From NCBI GenBank assembly GCA_023374025.1, contig SIJG01000134.1, positions 1 through 64,000 of the forward strand: DNA of 64,000 nt, in the 5' to 3' direction. This document shows positions 41,161 to 63,742 of this stretch, in pieces. This DNA comes from Heterodera schachtii (taxonomy: Eukaryota; Nematoda; Chromadorea; Rhabditida; Heteroderidae). Within the stretch, counting starts at the first letter, position 1. Every line of letters begins with the position of its first letter. The notes beneath the pieces were generated by a model, which worked only from the letters and a program-made list of their open reading frames with translations, was not told the DNA's origin and searched no databases. Made by a program: the position numbers and the translations under genes.

Positions 41161-41164
41161 AAAA

Positions 41165-43852: not shown

Positions 43853-43905
43853 TTTCGACAGTGATTGGTTTCGACAGTAGTTGATTTCGACAGTACTTTT
43901 TAATT
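43853..43905. repeat. Solo tandem 16-bp words (TTTCGACAGTGATTGA)
   Basis: Four imperfect copies. Same architecture as the other tandem-word termini, but no inverted partner was found nearby. Confidence 0.55.
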
Positions 43906-44555
43906 AGTTTTATACAAATTTATTGTACATACATATGAATTGAAATTAATATACAATTAGCATATACAAAAAAATCTATTAAACTAATCCCGAGTTTGTG
44001 TGCCAAGGTGCAAATCTGCAGGCTCTAATAGAATTCAAAAATCGAAAAACCTCTTCTATGTATCTGAGTATGAATACGGGGTCCGGGATCCCGAAATATT
44101 CGTGATCAGAGCGATTTCGAAAACCCTTGGATACTTGTTTCCAGGATTTTTTAAACCAAACAAAAATATTTTATAAAAATTTTGCCAAAAAATGGGTTCA
44201 ATTGGGATATGTAGTACCTTGAATTTTTCTTTTTAAAATTATGATTTGCCCTTTCCTTTTTTGAGTAATCAAAAATAATAATTAAAATTTTGCTTAGTTA
44301 AATAATTTCTAATTCTTCAGCGCTTGGCATTTCTTTTATTTGTAGATTATACAACTAGTAAAAATAAATATTACTTTTTTGAAATAATTTTCAAAAATTT
44401 TTAAACAAATAAATTTTTTAAAATTTGACTTTAGTTTTGATTTTGCTAATTTTGTTCTCTTTTCTAACTTTTCTTCTCGTTCATTTTACCCAAACCATTT
44501 CCTAAGTTTTTATCAAAATTTGTATAAATTTAAATAAAAAACAAAAATACTCTTA
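43906..44555. other. AT-rich spacer
   Basis: Nothing supported. Confidence 0.4.
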
Positions 44556-44559
44556 CTTT

Positions 44560-44870
44560 TATGGTATTTAGGCACTAATTCTTTTTTCTTTTCCAAAATC
44601 GCGACTTTTGCCTAATATTTTCCAATTTTCCTCTCAATTTTGCTTTTTTTTTGTAATTTTATTTTTTTCTTAATTTTTTCTTTAATTACACCAAATTTTT
44701 CGATCATTTCCCTTTTCTGTTGATTAGTTGGACCGTTCCCATTTTTTCCACCCCTAAGATCAAATTCTGAGCTTTCATTTTGGTCGTTTTGCTCATTTTG
44801 TTTAAATTTTTATAATTTCTCATTTTCTTTCATTTTTGTCCCATTTTACGCCAAATATTTCGTCAAAACT
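44560..44870 (-). pseudogene. Remnant of repeated HTH gene family
   Basis: Minus-strand reading with frame breaks: Asn/Gln-rich leader (KQNEQNDQNES), then EKFGVIKEKI and SKIERKIGKILGKSR. Same order as the copy at 6200-6886. Confidence 0.5.
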
Positions 44871-45051
44871 TGGTCGAATTTTGCCGAATTAGTATTAAAT
44901 ATTAAAAGCTACAAGTTCATTTTTTATGTCTTTGGAATATTTGTAATAATATAAATATTTTTGGGTGGCCAATTTACAGTTGGGCGCGTATGAGGTTTCT
45001 TGTTCTCACTTGAGTGGTCCAATGGGTTGTTCTTATTTTTGCGTTGGATCA

Positions 45052-46574
45052 GGGGCCTTTCAGAATTACGAACGACAAATCGACCGACAAACGACTAATT
45101 TGCCGTTTGTCTCCTAATATGTCGTTACGACAAAAAAATTCATCGTTTTGCCATTTGTCGTTTGTCTCTGTCGTCCGAATTGTCGTCCAATCAGAATTAC
45201 CAAATTTCACAGTATATTTGTCGTTTGTCGTAAATTTCTTTCCAGTTAACCGAAAATTTCATAAAGTGCAAAAAGCATGGAAAATGGCAAAAGTGTCTTT
45301 TTATGGGTTTTTTGAGGCGTAGATTCCAAATATAACATTTATTTCTTCTAATTCCAATCATGAACGCGAATTCAATAGACTTTGATAATTTGACGAAAAA
45401 TCATTGATAAATGGATAGATAATTAAAATCTAAGTTCGGATTCATGATCAGCGACTAATTTATCCCTAGGAACATAATTTTAACATGAAATACAATTTTT
45501 TGGATGAAAATTATGTGGTGTCTTTTTGGGACACTTCTCAGACGACAAATTTGAGGGGTGGTGTTGAGCGCCCCCCAAATATTTGGCGTTTGTCGTCTGA
45601 AATTTGACGTTTGTCGTAAAAACAATCAGAATTTTCGAGACAAACAACAAACGCCTAATTTCAGACGACAAACGACAAATTTCGGGAGACATACGACAAA
45701 CGACAAAATTTTTAATTCTGATTGATGATAAACGACAAAGGTCGTATACTAACGACGGTGCTATGTCGTTATATAAAAACCATCAAAAAGGGCGTTATAT
45801 AAAAAACCATCAAATGGGAATTTTCAACAAAAAACTGCCCATAACTTTTGTCAAAGTCAACCAAATTAAACATTCTTGGTATCATTGGATAGCCCCAACA
45901 TTTCTCTACAAGCTCATCTAAATTAGAAAAAATTTGGTCAAGTTTGAGCAAAGTTATGGCCAAAAGTACGCAAGGTACCAAGTTTTCACACATTTTTGGC
46001 CATCTTTTTTTGAAACTTAACGAAATTTTCTGAAATTTTGCAGGCTAATAGAGGACACTTAGGGCTATCGAATTATATCAAGAAAATAAAAAATCTAAGA
46101 AATTTATACGGACATTTTTTCATTAGACATAAAAAAATTTGATCATCAAAAATTCTGATCAAAACTTTCTCAGAACCAATAAAATTAATAAAGCTTGCTA
46201 TTATCCGAGAGCCCTACGTGTCCTCTATTAGACTGCAAAATTTCAAAAAATTTTATTGAGTTTAAAAAAAGTTATGGCCAAAAATGTGTGAAAACTTGGT
46301 ACCTTGCGTACTTTTGGCCATAACTTTGCTCAAACTTGACCAAATTTTTTAAATTTAGATGAGCTTGTAGAGAAATGTTAGGGCTATCGAATGATACCAA
46401 GAATGTTTAATTTGGTTGAGATTGACAAAAGTTATGGACAGTTTTTTGTTGAAAATTTCCATTTGATGGTTTTTTATATAACGCCCTTATTGATGGTTTT
46501 TATATAACGACTCAGCACCCTAACGACAAATATATCGTTTGTCTCTGTCGTTTGTCGTTGGTAATTCTGAAAGG
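45052..46574. mobile_element. Foldback element built of CGACAAA words
   Basis: Inverted ends GGGGCCTTTCAGAATTACGA and its near-complement at 46553-46574. The arms are filled with imperfect tandem ACGACAAAC-type words (45060-45250 and 45540-45745 on the left). Another element (45757-46519) is nested inside it. ORFs here follow the repeats. Confidence 0.7.
45757..46519. mobile_element. Nested foldback MITE, 763 bp, with 8-bp duplication
   Basis: Ends GGTGCTATGTCGTTATATAA and the complement at 46492-46519. It is flanked by a perfect 8-bp duplication CTAACGAC (45749-45756 and 46520-46527), cleanly inside the CGACAAA element. The arms contain ACCATCAAATGGG; the interior shares the module of the elements at 50-434 and 3312-3691. 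Palindromic almost throughout. Confidence 0.9.
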
Positions 46575-46575
46575 C

Positions 46576-46770
46576 CCCAGGGGCCAATCACAATTACGAA
46601 CGACAAAAGATAAACGACAAATCTGTCGTAATATACGTCGTTTGTCGTTATCTCCAATCACAATTAAAAAAATTTGTCGTTTGTCGTTTGTCTCCCGAAA
46701 TTTGTCGTTTGTCGTCTGAAATTTGGCGTTTGTCGTTTGGCGTTCGTAATTGTGATTGAAACCAACGACA
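46576..46770. mobile_element. Short foldback of CGACAAA/TTTGTCG words
   Basis: About 190 bp. GGGGCCAATCACAATTACGA pairs with TCGTAATTGTGATTG at 46744-46758 and is filled with CGTTTGTCGT words. Abuts the preceding element, with which it shares the GGGGCC start. Confidence 0.7.
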
Positions 46771-46799
46771 AACGCCAAATTTCAGACGACAGTAGTTAC

Positions 46800-47322
46800 A
46801 AGGGGACGCAGGTCAAAATTTTGGCGCTAAATTTGAATTCAAAAATTGGAATTCAAATTTTGGCTTGCTTTTTTTCTCTGCCTATAGGGCTATTTCGTTT
46901 ATTGTCTCGTGCCTATTGAGCGGTTTTGGGAGGTCAGAAGGTGTGGGGCGCTTGTGGCGCCAAATTATGAATTTAAAATTTTCTTTTTTTCTCTGTCAGA
47001 AGTACTATTTCGGTTTTCGTCTCAAACCTATTGGATGGTTTTGGGCGATGTGAGTGGAAATTTGGCGCCAAATTTAAATTCAAATTTCTTTCCTGAAAGT
47101 GTTGTGAATGTTTAAGTATTTAAATATATGTAAATTGAAAATAAATAAAATTCGATTTGTTTAAATTTAGGAATTTTTTATGATAGATTTAAAAAGGAAG
47201 AAATTTTATGAATGTCTAACAAATGAAAAGATGAAAATTTGGCCGTGTGGAAATTTATGAATGTATAAAATTTGTGAATTTATAACAATAAAAAAGGGAA
47301 AATTTGATGATGTGTCATGAAT
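46800..47322. other. AT-rich DNA, possible left edge of Polinton
   Basis: Includes a palindromic AAATTTGAATTCAAAAATTG segment near 46831. The Polinton terminal inverted repeat may begin here, but its partner would lie beyond the window, so the edge is not determined. Confidence 0.3.
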
Positions 47323-48446
47323 TTAAAAGGTGTTAAAATTGATGGGTAATTTCTGACTATGAATACGGTCACAATCAGTACATCCATTTCCGTTGTCACA
47401 ACGGTAATTATGTTTTTGAATTTTTGCTATTTTTCTGAAATCCGTTTCTGTTGTTGTTGGCCGCTTTCGTCCGGAATTTGACGAGGCTGATGATGAGGAG
47501 GACGACATTGACATAGCACTTGAGCACCGATTGTTGCTGCTGCTTTCACCGTCAGCATTTGATTGATGTAGGACAGTGTGCAACTGTCTTACGTGCCTGG
47601 TATTGCAGGTGAGGCGAGGAAAGCAGGGTTGAAAGGCGCTCTATGAAAATCATTTTTGTATTATTATGTTATTCACAAAACGGTATTACACATTTAAAAT
47701 TATTATTTATTTAAAACGCTTATCACTGTTTGGGGGATGTTGGACAGAAGGAGAGAAATTGGCGGCAAAGATTGACGGACGGGTTGTGTGTTGGACAATG
47801 GGGGTGTGTCGATTGATGATGTTTGAACGGTTTCCATTACGCCAATTTCAGTGACCGCAGTGTGTCCATCGTGTTCCACCATTCCGTCTGTGTCCGTAAG
47901 TGTGAATGAACGTTCCGTTGTTTGAGCAGAGCAAATGGCTTCTTCCTAAAATTTATCGAAAAATTACACTTTAAGTTTCCATAAACAAACTAGGTCCATT
48001 ACGACTTTCTTTTTCGGGTCCCACCCTACAATAGTAAATTCGTCTTCATCGGGGCCCTCCATTTGAGCACAACTGCATGAAAAAAATGCTTTAATATATC
48101 TTATTAAGAGTCATAAAACATGCGGTTGGACAATGACAGAATGTCAAGACCGCTCGATGCCAATTGGGTGATTTTTTCCCATAAGATTCCAAGGGCGAAT
48201 CCGGACTGTAACAAGAGAATTTGTTTTAGTTTTTTTTAAATTTCATACATTGTCTAAACATCCTTCGTCCACTAAATAACGACACAGCCCCCAATGGGTG
48301 GTGATCGGATTTGTCATGTTGAACTCCACGATGTACCACTTACGCAATTTCTTACATTTGGAGCATTGTTTCTTTTCGTAGTAAATGAGAGAGCGAAATG
48401 TATATGATTCCGTGCCGTCGTCAGCCAAATCCTCGTCTGTGTGCAT
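47323..48446 (-). CDS. Spliced Cys-rich protein, CW-zinc-finger-like, about 300 aa
   Basis: Five exons join without a stop: 48249-48446, 48120-48205, 47991-48072, 47727-47945, 47323-47640. The introns (43, 47, 45 and 86 bp) all have GT...AG ends. Residues 28-63 have C-x2-C, then W-x2-C and a final C (C28, C31, C55, C63), with a KLRKW segment after the second Cys, reminiscent of CW-type zinc fingers that read methylated histone H3. The next exon encodes LGILWEKITQLASSGLDIL, an amphipathic helix. The C-terminal part is a poly-Ser region, a basic patch (GRKRP) and another Cys cluster (CDNGNGCTDC). It is divergent from the gene at 48592, sharing a 145-bp promoter region. Role unknown; chromatin targeting is speculative. 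Splicing distinguishes it from the capsid genes. Confidence 0.6.
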
Positions 48447-48591
48447 CGGATGTATGTGTGTGCACTAAATTTAGATAATTATGATACTACGAGTGTGTAA
48501 ATTATGTATTTAAGCCCCGCCCATTTTTAGTAACAGTATAATGTTTATTCTCATCATTATCATCGATCAGTTTGAAATATAGACCCAAAAA
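48447..48591. promoter_or_regulatory. Divergent promoter region with TATTTAAG box
   Basis: TATTTAAG at 48507-48514, followed by CCCCGCCC, stands about 78 bp before the ATG at 48592. The same box precedes the gene at 63392. Confidence 0.5.
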
Positions 48592-49239
48592 ATGGATAAA
48601 AAATCTCTCACAAGTCAGCTCCTTCCTACAGTCAATTTTTTGGTTACAACACAGGGTGTGACCGTTCACAGTGACCGATTGGACACTCCGCGTGTAGTAT
48701 TTTTCAATGATGATGGCACCATTTGCAGACAATGCCGATATAATATGGATTTGGACTATCTGATCAGTAAGGATGGCGTCTACATTCAGTCGAACCGACT
48801 AAAAGGCACCGAAAAATTTGTACCATTCGACCGAGTGTATGATCTGCCGCGTTTCTGTGCGTTTCGCGTACGGTCGCGCAGGATATTTAAAGTCCCCTAT
48901 ATTTTCTCGGATTCTCCAATAGAAAAGTCAATATCCTCAACTGTTACGACTGAAAACCCTCTCATCGACAAAATTGAGACGAAAAAAGCGAGATTTGACT
49001 CAGACTCGCGCGACACTACTACGAAAAATGACGAAGTTGAGAAAGCAGAACTTACGAATCGTACGGATGAATTAAATGTGGTAGAGAAAGCAACAGATGG
49101 GGTGATACGGACAGTCAATATGGATCTGTCACAAGTACAATTAATGGACGAAGCAAATACAACGGAAAATACATCTAAATTCAGAACAAACAAATTTATT
49201 TCACATCTAGACACCATCAAGGAAGAAAAAGACATTTAA
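48592..49239 (+). CDS. Unknown Polinton-borne protein, 215 aa
   Basis: An ATG-initiated ORF. The N-terminal 105 residues look folded, with repeated VTVHSDRL/VYIQSNRL strands spaced about 45 residues apart (an internal duplication), a C-x2-C pair (CRQC) and basic residues (RVRSRRIFK). The second half is acidic and low-complexity, rich in Thr, Glu, Asp and Lys, probably disordered. No signal peptide or membrane segment. It is the first plus-strand gene of the element. Not recognised; a DNA- or RNA-binding regulatory role would be a guess. Confidence 0.75.
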   Translation: MDKKSLTSQLLPTVNFLVTTQGVTVHSDRLDTPRVVFFNDDGTICRQCRYNMDLDYLISKDGVYIQSNRLKGTEKFVPFDRVYDLPRFCAFRVRSRRIFKVPYIFSDSPIEKSISSTVTTENPLIDKIETKKARFDSDSRDTTTKNDEVEKAELTNRTDELNVVEKATDGVIRTVNMDLSQVQLMDEANTTENTSKFRTNKFISHLDTIKEEKDI

Positions 49240-49260
49240 AGCGATACGCACGTAATATTG

Positions 49261-49268
49261 TATAAAAA
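49261..49268 (+). promoter_or_regulatory. TATA box of ATPase gene
   Basis: TATAAAAA, 35 bp before the ATG at 49304. Confidence 0.55.
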
Positions 49269-49303
49269 CCTTAATTATTTCATTATTGTTCAATAAACTC
49301 GTT

Positions 49304-49984
49304 ATGATTGACGCGCAGCGGTTTGAGAGTAAAGAGCTAAAATTTTGTCTCCCATTCGGGTGTCTTGTGTCAGGACCTAGTTCGAGCGGCAAAAGCACCT
49401 TCATTTGCAAACTTATCGAACAAGCGGAGCATTTAATCGACCCTGTGCCCAAATCGATTCTGTACTGTTATGGGGAGTATAATCCATCATTAACAGACAT
49501 TCAGCATCGTATGGCCAACGTGCAACTTCATGCCGGAGTTCCGGATGCAGAAGTGATTAGCTCTTTGACAAAGCCCGCAATGATTATTCTTGACGACCTT
49601 CTGTACACTATAGATGAACGTTACCTAGCAGAACTATTTACCAAAAAATCACACCACCAAAATTTTGGGGTAGTGTTCGTCAGTCAGGACTTGTTTCAAC
49701 GTAAGCTTAAAGTGGTTCGTCAAAATTCGATGTACATCGTCCTACTTCGTGCACCAAACTCAGCATTGGCCATCCGGAATTTGGGCGTCCAACTGTTCCC
49801 TCGACAATTGGACTTTTTCTTGGATGCTTATCGACAGGCAACACGTCAAAAATACTCATATCTACTCATCGATCTGCACCCATCGTCGGACCCATTGCTG
49901 CGTCTACGTACCAACATATTTAAAGAAGACAATTCCGACACCGCTATTCAACAGACGATTTTTCTTCCTAAAGCAGGCGTTTGA
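49304..49984 (+). CDS. Genome-packaging ATPase (FtsK/HerA superfamily, A32-like)
   Basis: 226 residues from the ATG at 49304; the frame is open further up to a TTG but no upstream ATG fits the TATA box. The Walker A motif GPSSSGKST is at residues 24-32, Walker B MIILDDLL at 93-100 (D97, D98), and a sensor-type FVSQDLF segment follows. Size and motif order match Polinton and virophage packaging ATPases, which pump the genome into the capsid. It lies directly before a small core-like gene (5-nt gap). No frame break. Confidence 0.93.
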   Translation: MIDAQRFESKELKFCLPFGCLVSGPSSSGKSTFICKLIEQAEHLIDPVPKSILYCYGEYNPSLTDIQHRMANVQLHAGVPDAEVISSLTKPAMIILDDLLYTIDERYLAELFTKKSHHQNFGVVFVSQDLFQRKLKVVRQNSMYIVLLRAPNSALAIRNLGVQLFPRQLDFFLDAYRQATRQKYSYLLIDLHPSSDPLLRLRTNIFKEDNSDTAIQQTIFLPKAGV

Positions 49985-49989
49985 ACAGA

Positions 49990-50373
49990 ATGAACAGAGA
50001 ATCGGCACAAAAAGGCGTGCAAATTAGCCACACAGTGTGTCAACAGTTTCCTTTTCTTTGTACACTATCAAAAACCAAATCCATCCGAAAACGACGACGC
50101 ATTCTGCGGTCTATCAGTTCCGAGCAACTGCTTGCTCTCGCAGAGATATCTTTAAACATTGTGCGGGCCCGCTTCGCACTCACCACGCGTCAGAAGAAAA
50201 GGATGATGCCCTATGCGGACTTTATTCGTCGTCTCAGCCGTGCGAGAACAGAGAGAGGAGCCCGTCAATTGATAGTACAAAAGGGGTCTGGATTCAGCAT
50301 GCATTTATTTCCCGCATTATTGACCCCTATCATTCTCGAGTTGTCACGAATCCTAAGCAGTAATAAAGAATAA
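49990..50373 (+). CDS. Small conserved Polinton virion/core-like protein, 127 aa
   Basis: Starts at ATG 49990, 5 nt after the ATPase stop. Very basic middle (KSIRKRRRILRS), a helical ISSEQLLALAEISLNIV segment, TTRQKKRM, then LIVQKGSGF followed by a hydrophobic end (LFPALLTPIILELSRIL). This order (helix, R/K-rich, LVQKGG, hydrophobic tail) is that of a small protein commonly found beside the capsid genes of animal Polintons. Its role is unproved, perhaps DNA condensation or a membrane-active peptide. Next gene starts 6 nt later. Confidence 0.75.
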   Translation: MNRESAQKGVQISHTVCQQFPFLCTLSKTKSIRKRRRILRSISSEQLLALAEISLNIVRARFALTTRQKKRMMPYADFIRRLSRARTERGARQLIVQKGSGFSMHLFPALLTPIILELSRILSSNKE

Positions 50374-50379
50374 ATTCGT

Positions 50380-51303
50380 ATGTATGCAAATCGCTTTGTT
50401 CTTGTGCCAGAGGAAATTTACAAGGGTCTGACCGCACCAGCTGCCACCGGGGACCCTAATCTGGACTTTACACGGCGTACTCTTGATGAAGTTAAGAGAG
50501 AGCACGCTGATCCTACAACAAAAAACGCTCATTACAATCAAGAATTGCGCCGCTATCTTCACTTGAAGAAAGCATATGACGAACGACCTGTTAAAGTATC
50601 AATTGACCATGCTCCCGCACCCGTTCACCAGTCGAATGAAATACCCATTGTAACCACAGCACAAAAGAAACACGCCAAACGTTCTATAGTAGACCGACGT
50701 AGAAGGAACAAATCATCCTCATCAACACCAGCGACATCACGGCGTAGTAGCACCAGTAACGGAGATGTCTCTTTCTCTACAGACATTGAGGAAAATGGAG
50801 ACGCAGAAACAGAATCGGGTAGTAAAATTGACACTGCAGATTCTTCATGGACAAGTGCTAAAAGTGCCGAAACAACCGGTACTTTACGAGCCGAATCAGA
50901 AGTTTCTTCTGCTACAAAGTCCGCAACACCTGAACAACGATCGAAATGGATAAATGAATTCGGTGCACTGTTCATGTCAAATCCGGACAAGTATGGCGTA
51001 GCGACGGATGGTGGAATTCGGAATCAACAGGGCACTCGAATTGCAAACAGCAATATTCGTCGTTCGCTTGAATGGATCTTTAATGGTGGAACACAAGCGA
51101 CCACAAAGAGACCCCCAGGCACTTCACGGATTGAGCAAATATTCGAGAGAGAACGCCTTCTCCGTGCCTATTTACCACAACCTCAACAACAGAAAAAAGG
51201 GCACTATCAAAAACAAAAAGGATCATCATCACGATCACTAATAGGAAAGGAAGAAGTAGCAAAATTTGACCCTAAATTATGGAAATATACGGACAAAGAC
51301 TGA
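50380..51303 (+). CDS. Conserved Polinton protein with disordered middle, 307 aa
   Basis: The N-terminus (RFVLVPEEIYKGL, then DPNLDFTRRTLDEVK and YNQELRRYLHLKK) and C-terminus (KWINEFGALFMSNPDKYGV, NIRRSLEWIFNGG, RPPGTSRIEQIF, FDPKLW) both match a protein seen in many animal Polintons. The middle (about 90-180) is Ser/Thr/Glu-rich and disordered. Function not established; a minor virion component is likely from context. Its last 25 nt overlap the integrase start in another frame. Confidence 0.75.
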   Translation: MYANRFVLVPEEIYKGLTAPAATGDPNLDFTRRTLDEVKREHADPTTKNAHYNQELRRYLHLKKAYDERPVKVSIDHAPAPVHQSNEIPIVTTAQKKHAKRSIVDRRRRNKSSSSTPATSRRSSTSNGDVSFSTDIEENGDAETESGSKIDTADSSWTSAKSAETTGTLRAESEVSSATKSATPEQRSKWINEFGALFMSNPDKYGVATDGGIRNQQGTRIANSNIRRSLEWIFNGGTQATTKRPPGTSRIEQIFERERLLRAYLPQPQQQKKGHYQKQKGSSSRSLIGKEEVAKFDPKLWKYTDKD

Positions 51304-52394
51304 GCGAGCTGTATAATGACCCTGCTAAATCATCGGCAGCCTTTGCAGGGGTTGATGTTCTGTTCAGAGAGGCACGTAAGGCTATGCCGGGAATCACGCG
51401 CGATCAGGTCCGAGAATGGCTTGAGCATCATCGCACCTACACCCTCCACCGTCCGCGAAGGGTGCACTTCCGTCGCTCACGAACCATACCTGCAGGCTAC
51501 ATGACCGATGTGCAAATGGATTTGGCCGACTTTCAAAAGTTGTCGCGACATAACGCAGGAGCAAAGTATGCGCTAGTTGCTATTGATGTGCTCAGCAAGA
51601 GAATATTTGCAACGCACACACGTTCTAAGTCAGCGCGCGACATGATTGATTCGCTGAGGCGTCTGTTCTCTCAAATGGAGATGCGCCCCCACCGTGTGTT
51701 CTCCGACAAGGGAAAGGAATTTGAAGCCCGAGAAGTGCGTGCCTTTTTCGACGATGAGGAAGTGGAGAAGCATCGTCCTGCATCGTCCACCGTGAAAGCT
51801 AGCATATGTGAGCGCGCAATAAGGACACTGAAACAGCGGATGTATCGGTACTTTTCTGAGCATCACACTCTCTCATGGACCGATGTGTTGCCCCAAATTG
51901 TCAAAGGAATTAACGAGTCCAGAAGCCGAACACACGGAATGCGTCCTATGGATATTGGATTTCATAATGCTCAGCAGGTGTGGGACCGATTGTATGGGCC
52001 AAGAGAACGATTCATACACCCGGAACTATATGCGGATGACGAGGGACGTAGAGCACCACGCTTCCGTGAGGGAGATTATGTGAGGATGAGCAAAAACAAA
52101 GGGACGTTCGCTCGCGGATACCTTCCCTCATGGTCAGACGAAATCCTACAAATTGCAGAGGTGAAACCCAACACAACACCTGTTCGCTATAAGGTGAAAG
52201 ACGAGCACGGTGAGATGTTCGAGGGATGGTTCTATGAACCGGATCTGGCACGCGTGCGCAAAGACGCAAAAACGACATATCGCGTACACGTATTACGCAC
52301 AAAGACACAGAAGGATGGGACGAAGAGATACTATGTACGATACCTCGATGACCCAGAAAAACCCCGTTGGATTGATGAGACAGAATTTGTATAA
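51279..52394 (+). CDS. Polinton integrase (RVE fold) with chromodomain-like C-terminus
   Basis: 371 residues from ATG 51279. A retroviral-type catalytic core with candidate catalytic residues D81 (VQMDLADF), D143 (FSDKGKEF) and E178 (CERAIRTLK): D,D34E spacing. An SH3-like region follows (FREGDYVRMSK, near 262), then a chromodomain-like end (YRVHVL, YYVRYLDDPE, WIDE; residues about 330-370). It inserts the element into chromosomes, usually making 6-bp duplications. No zinc-binding HHCC domain is evident at the N-terminus. Intact. The TATA box of the next gene overlaps its stop. Confidence 0.95.
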   Translation: MEIYGQRLSELYNDPAKSSAAFAGVDVLFREARKAMPGITRDQVREWLEHHRTYTLHRPRRVHFRRSRTIPAGYMTDVQMDLADFQKLSRHNAGAKYALVAIDVLSKRIFATHTRSKSARDMIDSLRRLFSQMEMRPHRVFSDKGKEFEAREVRAFFDDEEVEKHRPASSTVKASICERAIRTLKQRMYRYFSEHHTLSWTDVLPQIVKGINESRSRTHGMRPMDIGFHNAQQVWDRLYGPRERFIHPELYADDEGRRAPRFREGDYVRMSKNKGTFARGYLPSWSDEILQIAEVKPNTTPVRYKVKDEHGEMFEGWFYEPDLARVRKDAKTTYRVHVLRTKTQKDGTKRYYVRYLDDPEKPRWIDETEFV

Positions 52395-52467: not shown

Positions 52468-54580
52468 ATGGTTGATGACTCTAACAACAACTACTTCTTT
52501 GTTGTACTGCCTAGCAATGTAACTGATTACGTGGACAACACCACGTCAAAATATCGTGTGCACCTACCGAAACCAATTCAATTCCGTGGCTCATGGGTCT
52601 GCGGACTGTACTCAATACAGTACCCGCACTCATGGGCTTCTACAATTGGAACTGTGGAGGACCAATGGATTGACATCCATTACATTGATGGCAGACAGTT
52701 ACGTGTTCATCTGCCAAAATCATCACAACAGAACACAGAAGGACTACAGCGCTATCTGAACGGTACACTCGCAGCCGCTCTAAGTCGCAAAAGCACTGAA
52801 GATGGTCAAGCTCCTTCCATTAAACGGTCCAAAAGAAGCGTGGATCAAGAACAACCGCAATCACAGGAAGAGACGGAGAAAAAGATCGACACTGACACTA
52901 TAGAGTTAAATGATAAAGGCGAAATAGTACCACAAGATAACCGTGGAGCAGAGTGTATAAAAATTGGGAAGCTGACCAAATGCAAGCGGATTACACCAAT
53001 TGATCCTGCTGTAAATGATAATAACGATGCCGGTAACAGTGCAACAACGATAGAGGAAGCACCTACTAATTTTGAACAACAACATGCAGAACGTCAATCC
53101 ATTGCACCCGAGGAAGAACAGACACAAGCGAGTAGCAGTAATGACCTAACTAAAGTTGACGACGATGACGATTCATCTAATGATGAAGGTGAAAGAGTGC
53201 AGCAAGACAATAATGCGGTAGAGTGCAGAAAGATAGGAAGGCTAACCAAGTGTAAGCGCATAAAACCGATTGTTACGGAAAACGGTGCTAAAAATGATGG
53301 TAAAGATGAAGAAGCAGTTACAGACACGAAAACATCACCAGAGGATACATCAATGAAAAATCCAGAAATAACATCACCATCAAACCCATCAGCATTTAAA
53401 CAACAACAACATCACGATGAACCCCAAGCCCAGGCACTTACACGTGGCGAACAGCTGGGGCATCGATTAAGAAAACCTGAAAATGAAGTTAAATCTCTAC
53501 AAAAAACACCAGTAAACAACGAATCATCGGAAGCTCAGACTCAGATCAGTTCTGTTAAGGATCAACCGAAAACGCATGCAGATGTGCTAAAAGACCGTCT
53601 TTCTACAATACAAGGAGATGTGAGAATACAAGCTCCGCCACAAAAATCCTTAAGCGATAGTCAAACATCGATAGAACCTACAACAAGGGCAAATGAGCAA
53701 AGTGACAGAGAACTACAGGACGCAAGGACGCATGGAGAGCAGCTTCGTTCACAGTGTGGAAGTGGTACAAGATGAAAGAATGGAAAAAGAAAGGCAGCTG
53801 CATGAAGCGAAGACCCACGGGGATTTGCTACGTGAGGAATTAAAGAAGATACGTGAGGAAGGCGAGAAAAGAGAACAAGAGCTAAGTGAGACTAAAACGA
53901 AAGGGGATACGCTGAGGTCTCAGATAGAAAAAATACGCGAGGAAAGCGGTCAAAAGGACAAGCAAATAAAGGTAGAGAAGACACACGGGGATGCATTGGT
54001 GAAGTTATTGGAAGAGAGTCGAAAAAAAACGGAAGAGACGGAGAAACGATTGACAGAGGCGAGGACACATGGACAAGTGCTGACCGATAGAATAAAAGAA
54101 ATACAAAATGAGCGTACAGCGCTGTCCGCTCCTGCTGACGTTCACTTTAACTATAGGACTGACATTGATCGTTTCCAGCTGATTATCTCCCACCCGGAAA
54201 TCGACTATTTGAGCATGAGCTCACAGATTGCCTATGTGCTAGGGTTTCCGAACAAGGAACGCGTGGTGCAGGGCGAGACCGCTAAATATGGGGTGGACCT
54301 ACGTGGAGGTTTTACTAGCTTTGCCGTTTACGCCACAGGACTTACACGCAGTGTGATTTTGGGGAATTCGCTAAGCTCACTCCTCCGCATTGTATCTACC
54401 GAGGGCGAGTATGGACAGGTGGTGGAGCGTATTTATGATAATCCGATGTTCATCCCTGTGCACCCAAGAGAGATCAACGAACTTCAAGTCGAATTACGTA
54501 TGATGAATGGACAACTGGTTCCATTCGATTATGGGACCGTACTTGTGACGCTTGTATTTAAAAAAGTGATCAACTTTTGA
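52468..54580 (+). pseudogene. Minor capsid (penton, single jelly-roll) protein with coiled-coil insertion; one frame break
   Basis: The first about 105 residues (YFFVVLPSN, SKYRVHLPKPIQF, WVCGLYSIQYPHSW) and the last about 145 (54130-54580: VDLRGGFTSFAVYA, IYDNPMFIPV, INELQVELR, VPFDYGTVLVTL) are the two halves of the Polinton penton jelly-roll. Between them lie about 440 residues absent from ordinary pentons: an acidic disordered part with two copies of an IGKLTKCKRI block, then about seven copies of a roughly 28-residue unit with a THG core (EAKTHGDLLR type) that should form a coiled coil. The frame changes by +1 between 53735 and 53765, inside a repeat; both sides remain open. Decay, sequencing error or programmed shift are all possible. 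The inserted stalk could be a surface spike. Confidence 0.85.
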
Positions 54581-54690: not shown

Positions 54691-55323
54691 ATGGTACACA
54701 TTCCGTTCGACACTCGAACAGTTGGATACGCTGAACATTTACCACACCAATACGGTGCCGGGGGAGGAGATTTTGGACCAACGAGCGATGGTAGCAACGG
54801 TGAAGGGTCACAGCATTTCCAGCACTATTTCCGCGGTGCTCCACCCTACCAAAGGGGCTATGGAGGTAGACACTTTCAGCGAGGTGCCGGCATAGGAGAC
54901 GTGCTACGTGGTCTTTGGCGTCTTCTTCTCCCAGTAGTGAGACGCGCAGGAACATCTGTTGGGCGACAAGCTCTTGAGACCGGTGAACGCATACTGGACA
55001 AGGTGCAACAGGGAGAGAATTTGAAGCAGGCAACCATTAGTGAGGGGAAACGGTCAATCGACTCGATGATGGAGAAGCATGGACTACCTAAACAATTTGG
55101 GAGCGGAAACAGCAATATAAATAGGATGAGAAAACGAGTACGCTTTCATCCTAAGATTGAAACAACACCATCAGATAACAAGCGCAAACAATCATTATCA
55201 TCATCACCATTGGAATCTCATCAGACACTGATAGGAAGAGTCCCGCCACTACCACCACCATCCTCATTACATCAGAACTCCAAGAAACGACGCAAACGAT
55301 CTGACACATTCGGATTCTACTAA
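54691..55323 (+). CDS. pVI-like minor virion protein, 210 aa
   Basis: The Gly-rich N-terminus (YGAGGGDFGP, GYGGRHFQRG) runs into an amphipathic helix region GIGDVLRGLWRLLLPVVRRA and RQALETGERILDKV, then a basic tail with an RKRVRF patch and a proline run (PPLPPPSS). This layout recurs in the gene just before the capsid in many Polintons and resembles adenovirus pVI, a membrane-active cement protein cleaved by the viral protease. Candidate cleavage sites cannot be set by eye. A TATATATATA run lies about 50 bp upstream. Its TAA overlaps the capsid ATG (TAATG). Confidence 0.65.
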   Translation: MVHIPFDTRTVGYAEHLPHQYGAGGGDFGPTSDGSNGEGSQHFQHYFRGAPPYQRGYGGRHFQRGAGIGDVLRGLWRLLLPVVRRAGTSVGRQALETGERILDKVQQGENLKQATISEGKRSIDSMMEKHGLPKQFGSGNSNINRMRKRVRFHPKIETTPSDNKRKQSLSSSPLESHQTLIGRVPPLPPPSSLHQNSKKRRKRSDTFGFY

Positions 55324-56663
55324 TGCAAGCTGCTCCATTCCATAAAATCGACCGAGACTCGGGTAATTCAGTATCCTCAGCATTAGCGTTCTTCGAAATC
55401 CCGGACACTGATGTCAGTCTATCGCATTCATCTGTGGTAGAGTGCCTAACGCTCAACCCGGTGAACATCACGCCCTATCACTTCAAAATACACGCAAGTT
55501 CCGACTACATAGATCTCAGCAAGTGTTATGTGTTTACCGAGTTACGCATTCGAAAAGAACAGGGCGGGGAAATGCAGAATCTGATTGCAGCAGATGATGT
55601 CAGCTGTTGCCAGTTGATCGGACATACGCTATGGAAGAACTGTCGCATGTCAATCAACGGTACTCAAGTGTTCGAGGGAAACGATTTGATGGCATACAAG
55701 AGCGTGATGGACTATGAACTGACCTACCCCGACACTGTGAAGCGCTCCTATCTGAACGTTGCCGGTTATTACACCGACGATGAAAATAGTCAATTGGCAG
55801 GCGACGGCTACAATGCCCGGCGTGGTCTGTTAGCGCTGAGCCGCACCGCTCAGTTCATGGCTCGACTGGACGTGGACCCCTGCAATCAGCCGCGCTATAT
55901 CGTTAATCAATGCGAAGTGGACATCGAACTTCTGCCCAACTCCTCTCAATTTGTTCTACTGGCACCGAATGCTCCACAAACGCCACCGGACCAGGTTCGT
56001 CGTTATCATCTGGAGGTAATCAGCTGTAAGCTCTATGTGAAGAAGGCCGAGGTGATGGACAGCCTGGCGCTTGACATCAGCAAACGTTTGGAGCTCCGTC
56101 CAGCACGCTATCCTTTGCGAAAGACGTCTTTGAAGGCGCTGTTCATCAGTGAAAACCGTACAGAGTTCACTGCCAACCTTTGGTCGGATCAAGTTCCCAA
56201 GCGTGTGGTGCTCGGACTTGTATCCAATGAAAGCTATGTGGGCACCATTGGTACCTCTCCGTTCAACTTCCAACACTTCGATGTGCGCGACATCAGCATT
56301 TGCGCAAACGGACGGAACTACCCCCAAGCACCCTATTCATTGGACTTTCCCAATGGGCGATTTGCTCGCGCCTATCACGACATGCATGAGGCTATCGGAT
56401 ATGCTGGTACGATGGAAAGCAATGGAATTTCGGTGAAGCGCTACGCTGAGGGGGGCCAATGCTTTTTCGTATTCAATCTAACACCATCGGCGGAAAGTTC
56501 CGCTGATACGTTCGACCTTATCCGAAAAGGCACAACCTCGATACGAATTTCTTTCAACACACCAGTGCCTGCGCGAGGTATAGTGCTAATAGCAATGGCA
56601 GAAATAGATTCACTTCTTATGCTGGACAAGAATCGTTCGGTCGCTACAGATGTTCAAGTATAA
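55323..56663 (+). CDS. Major capsid protein (double jelly-roll, hexon-like)
   Basis: 446 residues, intact. The N-terminus has VVECLTLNPVN, HFKIHASSDYIDLSKCYVF and TLWKNCRMSINGTQVF, the standard first-barrel strands of Polinton capsids; then a DLMAYKSVMDYELTYP segment, the family's invariant turn. The second barrel ends with GTTSIRISFN and EIDSLLMLDKNR. This protein builds the pseudo-hexameric capsomers; it is the counterpart of the nematode and invertebrate proteins named F54H12.2-like. Its start overlaps the previous stop by one base, so translation may depend on re-initiation or spliced-leader trans-splicing. A homologous fragment lies at 9751-10110. Confidence 0.93.
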   Translation: MQAAPFHKIDRDSGNSVSSALAFFEIPDTDVSLSHSSVVECLTLNPVNITPYHFKIHASSDYIDLSKCYVFTELRIRKEQGGEMQNLIAADDVSCCQLIGHTLWKNCRMSINGTQVFEGNDLMAYKSVMDYELTYPDTVKRSYLNVAGYYTDDENSQLAGDGYNARRGLLALSRTAQFMARLDVDPCNQPRYIVNQCEVDIELLPNSSQFVLLAPNAPQTPPDQVRRYHLEVISCKLYVKKAEVMDSLALDISKRLELRPARYPLRKTSLKALFISENRTEFTANLWSDQVPKRVVLGLVSNESYVGTIGTSPFNFQHFDVRDISICANGRNYPQAPYSLDFPNGRFARAYHDMHEAIGYAGTMESNGISVKRYAEGGQCFFVFNLTPSAESSADTFDLIRKGTTSIRISFNTPVPARGIVLIAMAEIDSLLMLDKNRSVATDVQV

Positions 56664-56730: not shown

Positions 56731-57420
56731 ATGTTTATTGACATTCATTCTCTTGACACTGATGATGATGATTATGAAACCGATTTCACTACGGTTACAA
56801 TCACTCCTACCACCCTATTAGAGTTTAAAGAGTATATGAGAAGGTTGGCCTCCGCCTCCACTTCTTCTCCACCGACTACATCTATAGCAAGGTCATCGTT
56901 GTCGACCATATTAGGACAGTCTACAACTACCGTGAAACCAACCATTCAGCTGTTATACAGTGACTCGCTTGACTCGACATATGGAGGTAGCAGTAGCAGT
57001 ACATGGATCGGAGAATTTATTATATCATTGTGCAGAAGTGTTGCCGGCTCTGAGGAGGGAGGATGTGGTGGATCACACGTATGGGTATGGACACGTGTAT
57101 TTTGCTGTATCGTAATTCTGCTCACATTGCTGTGCGGTGTACTGTACGCCATCCGCTCAATTTTTCTACTTAAAACAAAAATAAATCACCAGACAAAAGA
57201 CCAAGTCACCAACTCTAACGAAGCTAGGAACAACAAAAACAACAACAACAACAATAATAACGGAAATGAACAACACCCAAATAGAGAGGATGCTTTCCAC
57301 TTGTCAGACAACGAGAGAGTGCTTCAGAGGATGTTTTCCCGTGGATCGGATCCCAAAAATGATAGAATTACTACAGCGTCACCGACCCTTTCCCGCATCT
57401 CTGATCATCAACACGGATGA
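56731..57420 (+). CDS. Single-pass membrane protein, 229 aa
   Basis: The start at 56731 is preferred because the TATA box at 56659 would exclude the in-frame ATG at 56650. The N-terminal ectodomain is Asp-rich then Ser/Thr-rich, followed by a Cys-containing membrane segment (VFCCIVILLTLLCGVLYAI, about residues 124-142), and an Asn-rich cytoplasmic tail. The last 155 nt overlap the protease gene in another frame. No signal peptide is evident. It could be an envelope or entry accessory protein; nothing in the sequence identifies a fusogen. Confidence 0.65.
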   Translation: MFIDIHSLDTDDDDYETDFTTVTITPTTLLEFKEYMRRLASASTSSPPTTSIARSSLSTILGQSTTTVKPTIQLLYSDSLDSTYGGSSSSTWIGEFIISLCRSVAGSEEGGCGGSHVWVWTRVFCCIVILLTLLCGVLYAIRSIFLLKTKINHQTKDQVTNSNEARNNKNNNNNNNNGNEQHPNREDAFHLSDNERVLQRMFSRGSDPKNDRITTASPTLSRISDHQHG

Positions 57421-57760
57421 GGCTCGCCAAGAGGGTGCGCATTGGGTCGCACTGTATATTCCGCGTTTGAACACCATATGGTATTTTGATTGTTTGGCCC
57501 TTCCTGTTCCTTTTCACGTACAGAAATTTCTGTCTTACTTCCCTCATGTCAGTAAAAATCAAATGGCATTTCAATCTCTCACCTCAGACGTTTGTGGGCA
57601 CTATTGCATATTTTTTATTTATTTGGCTTCAACCGGAATGTTATATGATGAAATTTTGAAACAACTGAAATTGTATTGTGTGGATTATAATTGTGACATT
57701 GCAATTAAAAACTACGTGAATAAAATTTTGTTTTATCTTCTTGGGGGAGCCTTCAATTAG
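57266..57760 (+). CDS. Adenain-like cysteine protease (virion maturation)
   Basis: 164 residues. The catalytic set is in adenovirus-protease order: H59 (GAHW), D75 (WYFD), Q103 (MAFQS) and C110 (DVCGHYC). Length is short but usual for Polinton PRO. It would cleave capsid precursors during maturation. Its first 155 nt are within the membrane-protein gene in another frame, so both proteins constrain this DNA. No frame break. Confidence 0.92.
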   Translation: MNNTQIERMLSTCQTTRECFRGCFPVDRIPKMIELLQRHRPFPASLIINTDEARQEGAHWVALYIPRLNTIWYFDCLALPVPFHVQKFLSYFPHVSKNQMAFQSLTSDVCGHYCIFFIYLASTGMLYDEILKQLKLYCVDYNCDIAIKNYVNKILFYLLGGAFN

Positions 57761-58065: not shown

Positions 58066-61000
58066 ATGAGCAATCGATCAAACAATGAACCTAGCCCCCC
58101 GAAGCGTCGAAGAATGCCAAACATCCTTAGAGGTGGAAGCAACAACAACAGCAACAACAATGGCAAAAGACGCAATTTTCGGCACTATGTACGCGCGCTG
58201 AACACCGACGTAGCATTCAACAAAAAATTCAGGCTAATGAATGCTAAAAGTACATTCATGATCGAGACTCTGCCATCAAATCCTGAGTCGCTTTTACGCG
58301 TCATTTTCGGACATTGCATACAATCGTCATTAGATGAAGCTCAGAGACGCGGAATTGAACCGAGTCGACTTGGTGCAACAATTACTTCACAGTTATTGGA
58401 CCCTGACATCTGGATTCCGATCCGTCAGATAACTCCAAACACAGTGGACACAATTTTGAATCGCTTCTTGGATGTGGCACAATCAAAATCGCGGGAAGGT
58501 TCACTGTGGGGTGCACCCTTCAGTGTAATAGTAACCACTCTGGACACTGTTAATCTACCGCAGCGGGACACAATTAGCGGTCGCGGACCAAAACACCGAA
58601 CGCTAAAAGGAGCGCATCACATCATAAAAGAGAAAAATCTGCTGAGGATTCAAAATAATAATAATGCCTATTGCCTATTCTACGCGTTGGAGATCAGCAG
58701 AATCTATCACTGCATGGTGATGCCAAAACAAACTTTCAGCAATTATATTAACAAAATGCATTCACAACAACAACAAGACGCTGAGCGCCTAATGATCGAT
58801 GCAGGAATTCCACTAAACCAAGAAAGGTATGACGCCGAAGTGTGGGTACCACGTGTAGTGGACCATTGGAACGCAATGTACCCGGAGAGAAAATTTAAAG
58901 TGTTCATCTTCGGTACAACGGGTCAATACAGACCTAAATATACATATGGTCCAGAAGAATTCCGGACACCCATATCGCTCTATTACAACAATGATCATTT
59001 TGATGGCATCCGGTGTGGAGTTGGAACAGCAATTTTTGGTCGCGACTACTACTGCTTTGCATGCGAATTGCCCTTTAAAAATGCGGACACTCACAAAAGT
59101 TCATGCATTCTGCACTGTAAGGAATGTGGCCGAATTGGTGCGGGGCGGCCATGCAGGGACGATGGATTTAAGTGTGAGTGCGTGGGATGTGACAAAACAT
59201 TCATGAACGCTGACTGTTACCGTCATCACTTGTCGAGCAACTTTTGCCAAAAATCGCATAAATGTAAAAAATGCGGGGTGATATGGAACGTGAGGAATAA
59301 CAAAGGAGAGGGACGATCCGGACATGTGTGTGACGAGCGTTTTTGTAGAACATGTGGTGCCTTTCATAACCGTGAACGTGGATGCTTCATTCGACAACTG
59401 AAACCGCGTCGCCCTAAAACTTATCGATTGGTAGTATACGATTGTGAGACAACACAGAATTCTCATGTAATCGGCGCGCCAGAGGCTCAGCAACGGCGGG
59501 TACACATAGTGAACTTTGTGTCCGCATTCGTTACTTGTACAAAATGCATTCAAATCGGTGCATGGCGGAACTCTCTGCTCAATGCAGTTCCCTCATGTGA
59601 AATATGTGGTCCATATCGCACCCTAACTTTCTCTCATCGACCCTTCACAGGAACAGAAGTGGATTGCCAGCATGTATGCGATGATCCTATGTCGGCGTTC
59701 ACTGACTGGTTGATCTTAGGATTGCATAACAACAACAACAACACCCTCAATAACAACAACGACAGCACCACTAAAATAAAACCACACATTAAATATCCTA
59801 TTAATGTATTTGCACATTTCGGTGGTCGGTTCGACAATGTGATTCTGTTCCGGCAATTTTTCACCAGGGGACTGTGCCCAAAAATGATCAGACGGGGTAA
59901 TAAACTTTATGAGATGAAGGTGCTGCGCGGTAAAGACAACCCGGAGATTAAAGTGCGCGACAGTTGGAACCTAATGCCTGTTCCATTGGGAGCGCTTCCC
60001 GGCGCATTCGGACTCAGAGTGCAAGACAAAGAATTTTTCCCACATTTGGCCAATGTGGAAGACAATTATGACAGAGTTCTGCCCTCGCTACCGCCTCGGG
60101 AGCAGTATCTATACGGAGGAATGATTCCGGAGAGACAGCGTCGATTCAATGAGTGGTACGCCGCGCACCAGCACGAGCCTTTCAATTTGTGCGAGCAATT
60201 GGCATCATACTGTGTAAATGACAGCCGCATACTTATTGAGGCACTGATCGCCTTCAGAACCGAATTTTTGATGGTCACGAACCCGGATGAACAACATCGT
60301 TTGACGGAGGATGAAAGAGAGGTAGAGGAGGAGGAAAAGGAAGACGCTGGAGGAATTGAGCTTGGAGATGACGGAAACGGAGGGATCGACATCACTTGGG
60401 ACGCACTGACTATTGCGAGCGCATCAATGAAACACTTCCGCCTCAATCATTTACGGAGTGATCAGCTCGCAATCGTCCCAGAGAGCGGGTATGACACGGC
60501 AAACAATCAGAGCTTGCTCGCGCTCAAATTCATGGAATGGTACGCAGAGGAGAATGGACTGCGAATTCAGACCGCTCATTCCTCGGGCGGAGAGCACCGC
60601 ATTGGTCGCTATACTGTGGACGGTTATATACACGAGACGGATAGCGTAATTGAGGTGAATGGGTGCTGCTGGCATGCGCATGACCATCAACGGCACCGAT
60701 TTAAAGCTGACACTGTAATGCCGAGCGGAAAGACAGCTGCTCGAATTCGGGAAGACGATGCGCGAAGAATGGCTTTCATTCGCTCACAAATTCGTGGAAC
60801 TGTTAGTATATTCTGGGAATGTGATATTGAGGAACGGCTACGACGGGACCCCGACATGCGGCATGCGTTCGCTTCCTATCGAAACAGTGGACCTATTGAT
60901 CTAAGGGATTGCTATCATGGTGGTCGAGTTGGACCGCAACGCCTGCACTATCAGGTTCCGGAAGGGTGGCGTATGCGATACTTCGATGTCCGTTCACTTT

Positions 61001-62352
61001 ATCCGTACACTAATGCCATAACGGAATACCCAATTGGTCACCCCCGATGTGTGAACATCATTGAGGGTGCGAACCGTGCAGTGGACTGGCGACATCCAGA
61101 ACAGATTCCGGTTCGCGGTATTCTAAAGGTATTTGTGGTACCACCACGACAAGTGGATGTGCCAGTTCTGCCGGTTAAATTCGATCAACGTTTGCTGTTC
61201 CCACTTTGTGGGACATGCGCACGCCTTCATCCAGAGGGAGGTGTCTCCGCTTCTTATCGATGCACGCACAGCGATGAGCAGCGCGGTTGGGTTTCTACGG
61301 TTACATCAATCGAACTGGCAGAGGCATTACGCAATGGGTATCGCTGCACCGCCTATTATCGGTCCATAGAATGGGCACAGGAACAATGGAGTGAGCGTGT
61401 TTTTCGCGGTTACGTTGCAGAATTTATGACAATGAAAACACATGCAAGCGGGTTTCCGGAAGAGGTGGGAAATGTGGAGGAAGGAACGCGAAAAATTCAT
61501 CGCAGAGTGTGAGGAGCGCTTTGGTATGGTAATTGACCCGGCGCGCATGCAACACAATAAGGCGAAGCGGACTATAGCCAAGCTATGCAACAATTCCCTT
61601 TGGGGACGGTTCTCACTACGTAATGGACTGTCAAAGACTGTGGTTACTGATTCGCCATCAGAACTGCGCGCGTACCTCGACAATCCCCAGCTGGAAGTCA
61701 GCTCTGTGGACCCATTAAATGAACAGTGTGTGCTGATTACATACACGGCTAAAAAGGAATGGACCGATGAGCACGATTGCTCCAACATTGTTCTCTCCTT
61801 ATGGACAACATCGGCAGCACGCCTCCATCTTCTAAAATTGATGCAACGAGTTGTGCGTGCAGAAAACACAGAGCTGATATACACAGACACGGACAGTGTC
61901 TGTTTTGCCCATAGGGAAGGAGGACGGGTGTCCGCTGGATATTGGACCCCCATCTTGGAGACTTGTCAGATGAATGGCCTGATCATGAACTGCTCGAATT
62001 CGTGTCAGGGGGGTGTAAACAATATGCACTGAGAATGCGCCACCGTCAAACTGGTAAGGAGCAGACGGTGGTCAAAGTGCGCGGCATAACACTTAGCGGT
62101 GACGCGTGCCGTCTTCTACATTTTGATACGTTCAAGCGAGCGGTTCTTCGGTATGCTCAAGGACCAAAAGAGGACGACGGTAACAATACCAATGATGAAG
62201 TTATACTAATTGATAATCCTAATTTCCTACGACCCAATATACGCACAGGTACTGTACACTCGGTAGCACTTACAAAGCGTTACCGACCCGTTGTTACGAA
62301 AGGTATTGTTTCCCCAAACGACACTCGTGTACTTAATTTTGGATTTGTATGA
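58066..62352 (+). pseudogene. Protein-primed DNA polymerase B, two frame breaks
   Basis: The main frame (58066-61512) has a Cys/His-rich zinc-binding block (residues about 327-448), the 3'-5' exonuclease motifs (YDCETT near 458; HFGGRFDN near 585; YCVNDSRIL near 716), and polymerase motif A (DVRSLYPY, near 974). A second frame (about 61455-61945) carries motif B (KLCNNSLWG) and motif C (YTDTDSVCF); the first frame resumes (LGDLSDEW, EFVSGGCKQYA) to the stop at 62352. The breaks compensate (+1 then -1); the second is at a C5 run, so sequence error is plausible. Between exonuclease and motif A, near 852-872, a DGY..ETDSVIEVNGCCWHAH segment resembles a Vsr/PD-(D/E)xK nuclease. An Asn-repeat insertion lies near 560. 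It replicates the element from protein-capped ends. Confidence 0.93.
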
Positions 62353-62374: not shown

Positions 62375-62622
62375 TTTAAAGAGTAAACTGTTACAAAATT
62401 AGCTAAGGGAAATGTATAATTTTAAGTAGAAAAATATAAAATTAGTGCAAGGGAGAGTATGTATGATAAAAATTAATAAATAGAAGAGAAAGTTATAAAT
62501 TATGCAGTATTGTGCGCAATTTGTCTAGCTCATCATCAGCAACCCATACTTCATCCCTTGCCCATTCTCCGTCATCAGACACTTTCCAATATTCCAGTCG
62601 TAAAGAACACATTGGAGGTAGG

Positions 62623-63189
62623 TTATTGGATGGTAAAACCATTAAGTGGACCATCAGATTCATCATCATCGCCATCCTCCCCATTGGTATCATCACGGAG
62701 AAACGTACTAGCAGATAATTCGTCATCATCGTCATCATAGGAACGAGCATAATCAGCGTAGGTGTGCATATGAGGAGACCGTGATGGAATTGCACAATAG
62801 GAGGAGAATTGGACGAGTTCCAAGGGATAGAACTTTAATACGGTGGTTCGCTGACCGCCGCGATGAGACAAAGTTGTTCGCTCAATAGCACATGGTGCTT
62901 TGGGATGATTCAGCATTATTCGATGACGTGCGTAATAATGGGCAGCGACAGAAATATTGAACGGTTCTCTCAGTTTTCCATACGCGAGAAGGGATTCTGC
63001 TCCCTCTGCCGACAGACCAGTACACGTGAACGTGTGATTCAGTCCATTACGGTCCTTGTACATGGTAGTGAGCAGTTTGTGATTACACAACCCTAGAGCC
63101 TTTGCTCGCTCATCATCACTAAGCAGTCTGTTACTAACTTCATACGCAGAACAGTTAAACAAATTCTTGAATTGATCGAGTAAACTCAT
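62623..63189 (-). CDS. Stand-alone PAZ-domain protein (Argonaute-like), 188 aa
   Basis: Residues about 1-132 read like the PAZ domain of Argonaute: a CNHKLLTTMYKDRNG strand followed by HTFTCTGLSAEGAESL, then NISVAAHYYARHRIMLNHP and KAPC (the VAEYF..Y.I.LKYP..PC signature) and KFYPLELVQF (the YPLELC signature). No MID or PIWI follows; the rest is an acidic tail (DDDDDE near 152, EDGDDDESDG near 171). PAZ binds the 3' ends of small RNAs. Being PAZ-only, it cannot slice. It sits antisense beyond the polymerase, divergent from the gene at 63392. Probably captured from the host; a suppressor of RNA silencing is the leading inference. Family assignment is by motif recognition, not search. Confidence 0.75.
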   Translation of the reverse strand: MSLLDQFKNLFNCSAYEVSNRLLSDDERAKALGLCNHKLLTTMYKDRNGLNHTFTCTGLSAEGAESLLAYGKLREPFNISVAAHYYARHRIMLNHPKAPCAIERTTLSHRGGQRTTVLKFYPLELVQFSSYCAIPSRSPHMHTYADYARSYDDDDDELSASTFLRDDTNGEDGDDDESDGPLNGFTIQ

Positions 63190-63391: not shown

Positions 63392-63742
63392 ATGGACAAT
63401 TTCATTGAAAAAAGTGAAGGAGTTTGTATGAATAATCAGTTTCATCATGAGGACAAAATGCCACAACACCAACACCAACAACCACAGCAACAACAACCAC
63501 AAGAAGATCAACAACGTCAAACTGATGTGATCGAACATGATCACTGCTACGCGCACACCACAAAACAATTATGGAAACTGAAAAGACAAAAATACATGTT
63601 GACATTTAAACTATGCAAAATGTGTGCACAAGAGCTGTACAACCGTAAGGACGACATCACAGAGTGTAACGACGGAGGTGTGAACTTGAGTTTCACCTGT
63701 GCAAACATTGTACAATGCTCAACATGCGACTTAGCGATATGA
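63392..63742 (+). CDS. Small Gln-rich, Cys-containing right-end protein, 116 aa
   Basis: Gln/His/Pro-rich middle (residues about 24-46), then a basic stretch (KLKRQKYMLTFKL) and a C-terminal half with C-x2-C twice (CKMC, CSTC) plus further Cys, suggesting one zinc site. Not recognised. It could be a small DNA-binding regulator. Its end overlaps the next ORF by 28 nt. Confidence 0.6.
   Translation: MDNFIEKSEGVCMNNQFHHEDKMPQHQHQQPQQQQPQEDQQRQTDVIEHDHCYAHTTKQLWKLKRQKYMLTFKLCKMCAQELYNRKDDITECNDGGVNLSFTCANIVQCSTCDLAI

Follow-up and report, generated by a model that had tools for sequence, protein, structure and literature searches.

The window considered here, namely, a 64,000 bp stretch of Heterodera schachtii DNA, contains a series of ORFs belonging to a Polinton/Maverick element (Table 1), in agreement with the setting proposed in a preliminary description of this sequence. 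As in other Polintons, an rve integrase, a DNA polymerase B (PolB; DNA_pol_B_2 match at E 6.5e-23 in the first of its three ORFs), an adenovirus-type protease and an ATPase are encoded; the element differs from these in bearing an additional gene, encoding a PAZ protein of 188 residues. Because the small ORF past this gene is common to five sister loci, the PAZ gene sits within the element. Terminal inverted repeats were not found between positions 40001-50000 and 62301-67500. The capsid candidate gave neither a Pfam capsid match nor a PDB match, and its structural model (pLDDT 29) was unusable. At positions 52468-54580, a pair of overlapping ORFs containing recurring THG..L-like stretches was noted, and the region ahead of the element (41171-46739) is rich in repeats, both direct and inverted.

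Table 1. Features of the Polinton element and its PAZ gene in the window.
Feature	Position	Strand	Basis
Packaging-ATPase-like ORF	49286..49984	+	Adeno_IVa2 E 5.7e-4, just under cut-off; at least 135 genome matches
Integrase (rve)	51279..52394	+	E 4.9e-10, over cut-off
Putative major capsid ORF	55323..56663	+	By place only; homologues precede protease in sister loci
Adenovirus-type protease	57266..57760	+	Peptidase_C5 E 5.9e-6, over cut-off
DNA polymerase B, three overlapping ORFs in different frames	58066..62352	+	58066-61512, 61442-62032, 61942-62352; pieces matched in sister loci
Stretch resembling the C-terminal tail of relatives, not in the frame of the PAZ ORF	62517..62618	-	Small search
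PAZ-only ORF, 188 residues	62623..63189	-	ATG at 63189; family, profile, fold and leave-one-out score
PAZ domain and N-terminal helices, residues 1-132	62794..63189	-	Predicted fold aligned to 8thq_B residues 228-350
Arg88-His89 codons, aligned with Ago2 Arg315-His316	62923..62928	-	Pocket alignment, 47 rows
Small ORF past PAZ	63392..63742	+	Common to sister loci L009, L010, L016, L022 and L024

A stand-alone PAZ protein

The 188-residue ORF and the motifs quoted for it in the preliminary description were both present. PAZ was the sole domain detected by hmmscan, with PIWI being absent, as had been claimed, and the RNase III and helicase domains of Dicer likewise not being seen. The contig offered no Piwi match at E <= 0.001. 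Considered as a single sequence, the protein scored 16 bits against Pfam PAZ (PF02170), as compared to a curated cut-off of 28.8 bits, with the match covering only residues 76-130. By contrast, PF02170 matched all 13 aligned family members (E <= 1; best value 4.1e-9), such that the Pfam search suggested earlier succeeded for the family but fell short for the window protein. When a profile of 12 homologues, the window protein being left out, was used, the latter scored 120.6 bits (E 6.6e-36), as compared to a maximum of 4.9 bits among 2,000 letter shuffles; this match is, therefore, beyond chance. A reverse profile search from the PAZ family reached the Ago2 PAZ domain at 5.6e-7. The predicted fold, moreover, matched the PAZ structures of human Ago2 (8thq and 6ra4) and Drosophila Ago1 (1r4k) and could be superposed on Argonaute PAZ, a check that had been advised, with the model being weak at residues 71-90, which contain the Arg-His pair addressed below. 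The window ORF thus belongs to the PAZ family and has the PAZ fold, an assignment that relies on the family and fold matches, given that the single-sequence Pfam score is under the cut-off.

Other searches with the PAZ ORF yielded no match in PHROGs and no structural match in BFVD at E <= 0.001. No relative of the PAZ protein, the capsid candidate or the ATPase was found among viral contigs, nor was any relative found among prokaryote genome contigs, results of little weight, since nematode genomes are scarce or absent in these collections. The sole match in a single-sequence PDB search, an esterase (E 0.79), is unrelated.

The element protein resembles the PAZ domain of Ago-clade Argonautes in profile, predicted fold and an Arg-His pair, yet differs from these Argonautes in having no MID or PIWI domain and in being transposon-borne. 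Arg315 and His316 of Ago2, described in the available portions of PMC5896489 (a modelling and binding study) and PMC8860597 as touching the RNA 3' overhang, were each kept in 46 of 47 aligned PAZ rows (those of L043 and L047 being left out). Elsewhere in the pocket, the element PAZ departs from that of Ago2. The position of His271 is occupied by Tyr in 39 and by His in seven of the 47 rows, that of Tyr311 by His in 46 and that of Lys313 by Tyr in all 47, with what looks to be a reciprocal exchange of His and Tyr between positions 271 and 311. Phe294 is lost at its own column, near which an Ala-Tyr-Gly stretch is invariant in a 13-row alignment. Examination of the 3'-end-binding residues, advised in the preliminary description with the aromatic ones in mind, accordingly gave a divided outcome, the Arg-His pair being kept and Phe294 not. 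On balance, the pocket features favour RNA 3'-end binding, without proving it.

The protein had also been ascribed an acidic tail. A surplus of acidic over basic residues is common in the tails of relatives, which differ by group, with types III-V (defined below) being almost tailless. The C-terminal end of the window copy, however, is probably not the native one, since the tail of close relatives (P0017, P0018 and P0019) matches window DNA in another frame (E 1e-5 to 7e-4). With its PolB likewise spread across three frames, the window copy of the element is probably worn; all frames in the window were kept as they stand. Tryptophan is the last residue in 16 of the 26 ORFs of types I and II and in 14 of 32 database proteins, as compared to an overall tryptophan content of 0.9%. 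Among L009-L034 and P0001-P0016, many of the PAZ proteins stop exactly at this residue, often behind a GR.ECSQ-like stretch.

Distribution of the PAZ gene among Polintons

Searching the genome (178.5 Mb) with the window protein revealed at least 80 matches at E <= 1, the strongest 27 of which, that of the window included, are stop-free. Such genome searches score the best candidates only, so that the counts given are lower bounds, while the evidence for linkage rests on ATPase matches and the flanks of loci. PolB pieces were present in a 4-kb stretch at 17 of the 20 best non-window copies, which were picked by PAZ score alone (at L026, only at E 0.001), with none being seen in that stretch at L014, L018 and L021. 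In the sister Polintons, where the preliminary description had advised that the gene be sought, the ORFs were open. A PAZ match was obtained, and the ORF is neither missing nor disrupted throughout these elements, so that neither of the two refutations proposed for the earlier reading applies.

An ATPase match lay no more than 20 kb from 49 of the 118 listed merged PAZ loci, with at most 2.5% of the genome being that close to such a match. Piwi matches adjoin 12 PAZ loci, taken to be host Argonautes, and none of the 49 ATPase-linked loci. The position of the PAZ gene relative to the ATPase gene defines layouts I-V. In type I, that of the window, PAZ is found 10.8-14.7 kb 3' of the ATPase on the opposite strand (10 loci). 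PAZ is again 3' of the ATPase, now on the same strand, in types II (7.1-7.2 kb; five loci), III (~6.5 kb; 11 loci) and IV (8.9-9.6 kb; six loci), while in type V, it lies 0.3-1.6 kb 5' of the ATPase on the opposite strand (eight loci). Another nine ATPase-linked PAZ loci fall outside these layouts. Depending on the layout, the neighbour of PAZ is PolB, the protease, the integrase or the ATPase. L029-L048 were mostly picked for a nearby ATPase, such that their Polinton neighbours (20 of 20) do not constitute independent evidence. From the perspective of the ATPase, PAZ was found within 20 kb of 51 of 111 listed loci and was absent there from the other 60, meaning that the gene is not required by every copy.

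Distances between PAZ sequences correlated with those between PolB sequences across 22 loci (r 0.93), within type I (r 0.81; 17 loci) and when the window clade was omitted (r 0.69; 13 loci), each with p 0.0001 in 9,999 permutations, indicating that PAZ has mostly been inherited along with the element. Among 630 pairs, 34 were usable, and dN was lower than dS in 33 of these, with a median ratio of 0.12, reflecting purifying selection, although the comparisons are not mutually independent and those between distant sequences have reached saturation (ratios 0.67 to 1.11). The one remaining pair joins sequences of different types and is likewise saturated. L047 was left out of both the distance and dN/dS tests.

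It is very improbable that these sequences represent host PAZ genes or relics whose only tie to Polintons is proximity. In line with such an origin, 48 of the 118 listed PAZ loci had neither an ATPase nor a Piwi or A17 match as a neighbour in scans (for which 125 of 135 A17 rows were taken, ten weak rows being left out), and some relatives are entered in UniProt merely as PAZ domain-containing proteins. Yet PolB was seen beside eight of the 11 such unlabelled loci fetched among the best copies, these being included in the 17 of 20 noted above, and the fixed distances and orientations to the ATPase, the co-divergence of PAZ with PolB and the stop-free state of the strongest 27 matches likewise argue against this origin. 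The idea of a host gene, or of adjacency by chance, was, as such, rejected on the basis of element linkage, fixed layouts and co-divergence with PolB. Rather, the PAZ gene is borne by Polinton elements at fixed positions that differ among groups, with several tylenchid Polinton groups keeping an Argonaute-type PAZ as a small stand-alone gene.

The preliminary description knew of no Polinton with such a gene, and the literature considered here, comprising titles and the starts of abstracts, with few subscription papers and no preprints, likewise offered no PAZ gene in Polintons/Mavericks, retrotransposons or as a viral suppressor, including in reports on nematode Polintons and BEL/Pao elements. 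Nor is any such gene claimed in the available portion of PMC6361761.

L047 (C21:1833000-1842000) presented a palindrome-like arrangement, in which each end carries PAZ, an ORF like that at 48592-49239 and ATPase pieces, with the order being inverted between the two ends.

PAZ in BEL/Pao retroelements

Some PAZ matches were found inside very long ORFs. L049 encodes a G2 glycoprotein of phlebovirus type (E 7.6e-43), together with the C-terminal domain of this glycoprotein, followed by PAZ. The one upstream region examined, L054, on the same strand, presented A17 (9.4e-49), DUF5641 (2.4e-17) and Integrase_H2C2 (4e-8) matches, together with RVT_1 (4e-6) and rve (4.2e-6) matches under the cut-off, and is a BEL/Pao retroelement, a PAZ setting unforeseen in the preliminary description. 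Nematode belpaoviruses with phlebovirus-like envelopes, such as Atlas virus, are already known, as reported in the available portion of PMC9094657, the main text of which does not contain the word PAZ. L054 and L049 resemble these in reverse transcriptase, Pao peptidase, integrase and G2 glycoprotein but differ in that PAZ lies behind the glycoprotein.

The arrangement recurs. Among the 118 listed PAZ loci, 12 follow a same-strand G2 match on its 3' side at a distance of 0.9-1.2 kb, with A17 being found 4.6-7.1 kb upstream in nine of these; all other PAZ-G2 arrangements within 3 kb amount to a single pairing. Conversely, PAZ in this arrangement follows 10 of the 66 listed G2 matches of at least 600 bp. 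For one pair of BEL/Pao PAZ-region copies, dN was 0.038 and dS was 0.26.

With a profile of the Polinton type III-V PAZ proteins, the BEL/Pao PAZ regions of L049, L050 and L053 scored 57-61 bits, while host Argonaute-like exons, which are shorter, scored 30-37 bits and the unassigned piece L066 scored 49 bits. No database protein was retrieved with the BEL/Pao PAZ region at E <= 0.01. A PAZ tree (86 columns; 11 of 41 inner branches open) weakly groups the BEL/Pao and type III-V sequences and does not settle the donor Argonaute. One may tentatively envisage a PAZ of Argonaute origin as an anti-silencing part common to tylenchid Polintons and envelope-bearing BEL/Pao elements, perhaps passed between the two classes, although we hold this to be somewhat less than an even prospect.

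L066 (C52:792700-793150) is a PAZ piece with no Piwi match within 6 kb, and the adjoining ORFs resemble an SH3/VHS adaptor.

A possible role in evading small-RNA silencing

A lone PAZ in which the Arg-His pair is kept would most simply be a 3'-end binder. It is thus proposed, with a probability of about 0.5 and in keeping with the decoy suggested earlier, that the element PAZ captures small RNAs of the host, or their precursors, by the 3' end, letting the element escape silencing. The stand-alone PAZ would grip the 3' ends of siRNAs, 22G-RNAs or precursors of these, so that the captured RNAs would be withheld from Argonautes or their making hindered, with the element thereby evading silencing. 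Through its acidic tail, in which tryptophan is often the last residue, the protein might hold an Argonaute or other partner, although this is a guess. Against capture of small RNAs stand the differences between the pocket and that of Ago2, the weakness of the structural model around the Arg-His pair, the worn look of the window copy and the 60 of 111 ATPase loci with no PAZ within 20 kb.

The preliminary description had included piRNAs among the pathways countered, a component that does not fit and an unlikely target. In the available portion of PMC4323106, PRG-1 and piRNAs are reported as absent outside nematode clade V, while 22G-type RNAs antisense to transposons are described in Globodera pallida (clade IV). 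The target would, therefore, be siRNAs or 22G-RNAs.

Alternatively, PAZ could serve in replication or packaging, gripping the 3' ends of Polinton DNA or of BEL/Pao RNA or cDNA. PAZ folds bind 3' ends generally, and the gene adjoins PolB, the protease or the ATPase in several groups. This seems unlikely, given that PAZ behaves as an accessory gene, with 60 of 111 ATPase loci having none within 20 kb and only 10 of 66 long G2 matches having it, and given its presence in two element classes with different modes of replication.

Polintons and BEL/Pao retroelements indeed differ in how they replicate. As both keep PAZ, a host-directed role is likelier than one in replication. Such sharing across unrelated element classes favours a role directed at the host, which would most likely be small-RNA 3'-end capture against silencing.

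A host-directed role could also be exerted at the protein level, with PAZ acting as a decoy or dominant-negative piece on Argonautes or on Dicer or RdRP partners, no RNA binding being needed. The mostly acidic tails and the frequency of terminal tryptophan in types I and II are consistent with this idea, as are the tryptophan pockets of Argonaute (PDB titles), although the link to the tail is a guess. We nonetheless consider such a protein decoy improbable, since retention of the Arg-His pair in nearly all aligned rows suggests that RNA binding matters and tails vary among groups, with types III-V having nearly none.

Viral silencing suppressors and transposon anti-silencing proteins, such as plant VANC, are not known to share the PAZ fold. 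The purpose proposed for PAZ would be the same as theirs, namely, that of an element-coded protein that blunts host silencing; the element PAZ differs in being derived from the very machinery by which the host silences. Were the proposed role true, transposons would be turning part of that machinery against their host, in a worm lineage reported to be without piRNAs. The PAZ gene offers a testable, sequence-defined candidate to explain the persistence of giant virus-like transposons and of retroelements in the face of small-RNA defence.

Finally, a wider-alignment search retrieved 32 database proteins at E <= 0.01, with those of named origin coming from Meloidogyne, Heterodera and Ditylenchus. 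A Heterodera schachtii protein among database entries is identical to locus L036 at 100 of 103 letters. For the PAZ-domain proteins of Meloidogyne and Heterodera, for which the databases give no context, the element setting described here may offer one.
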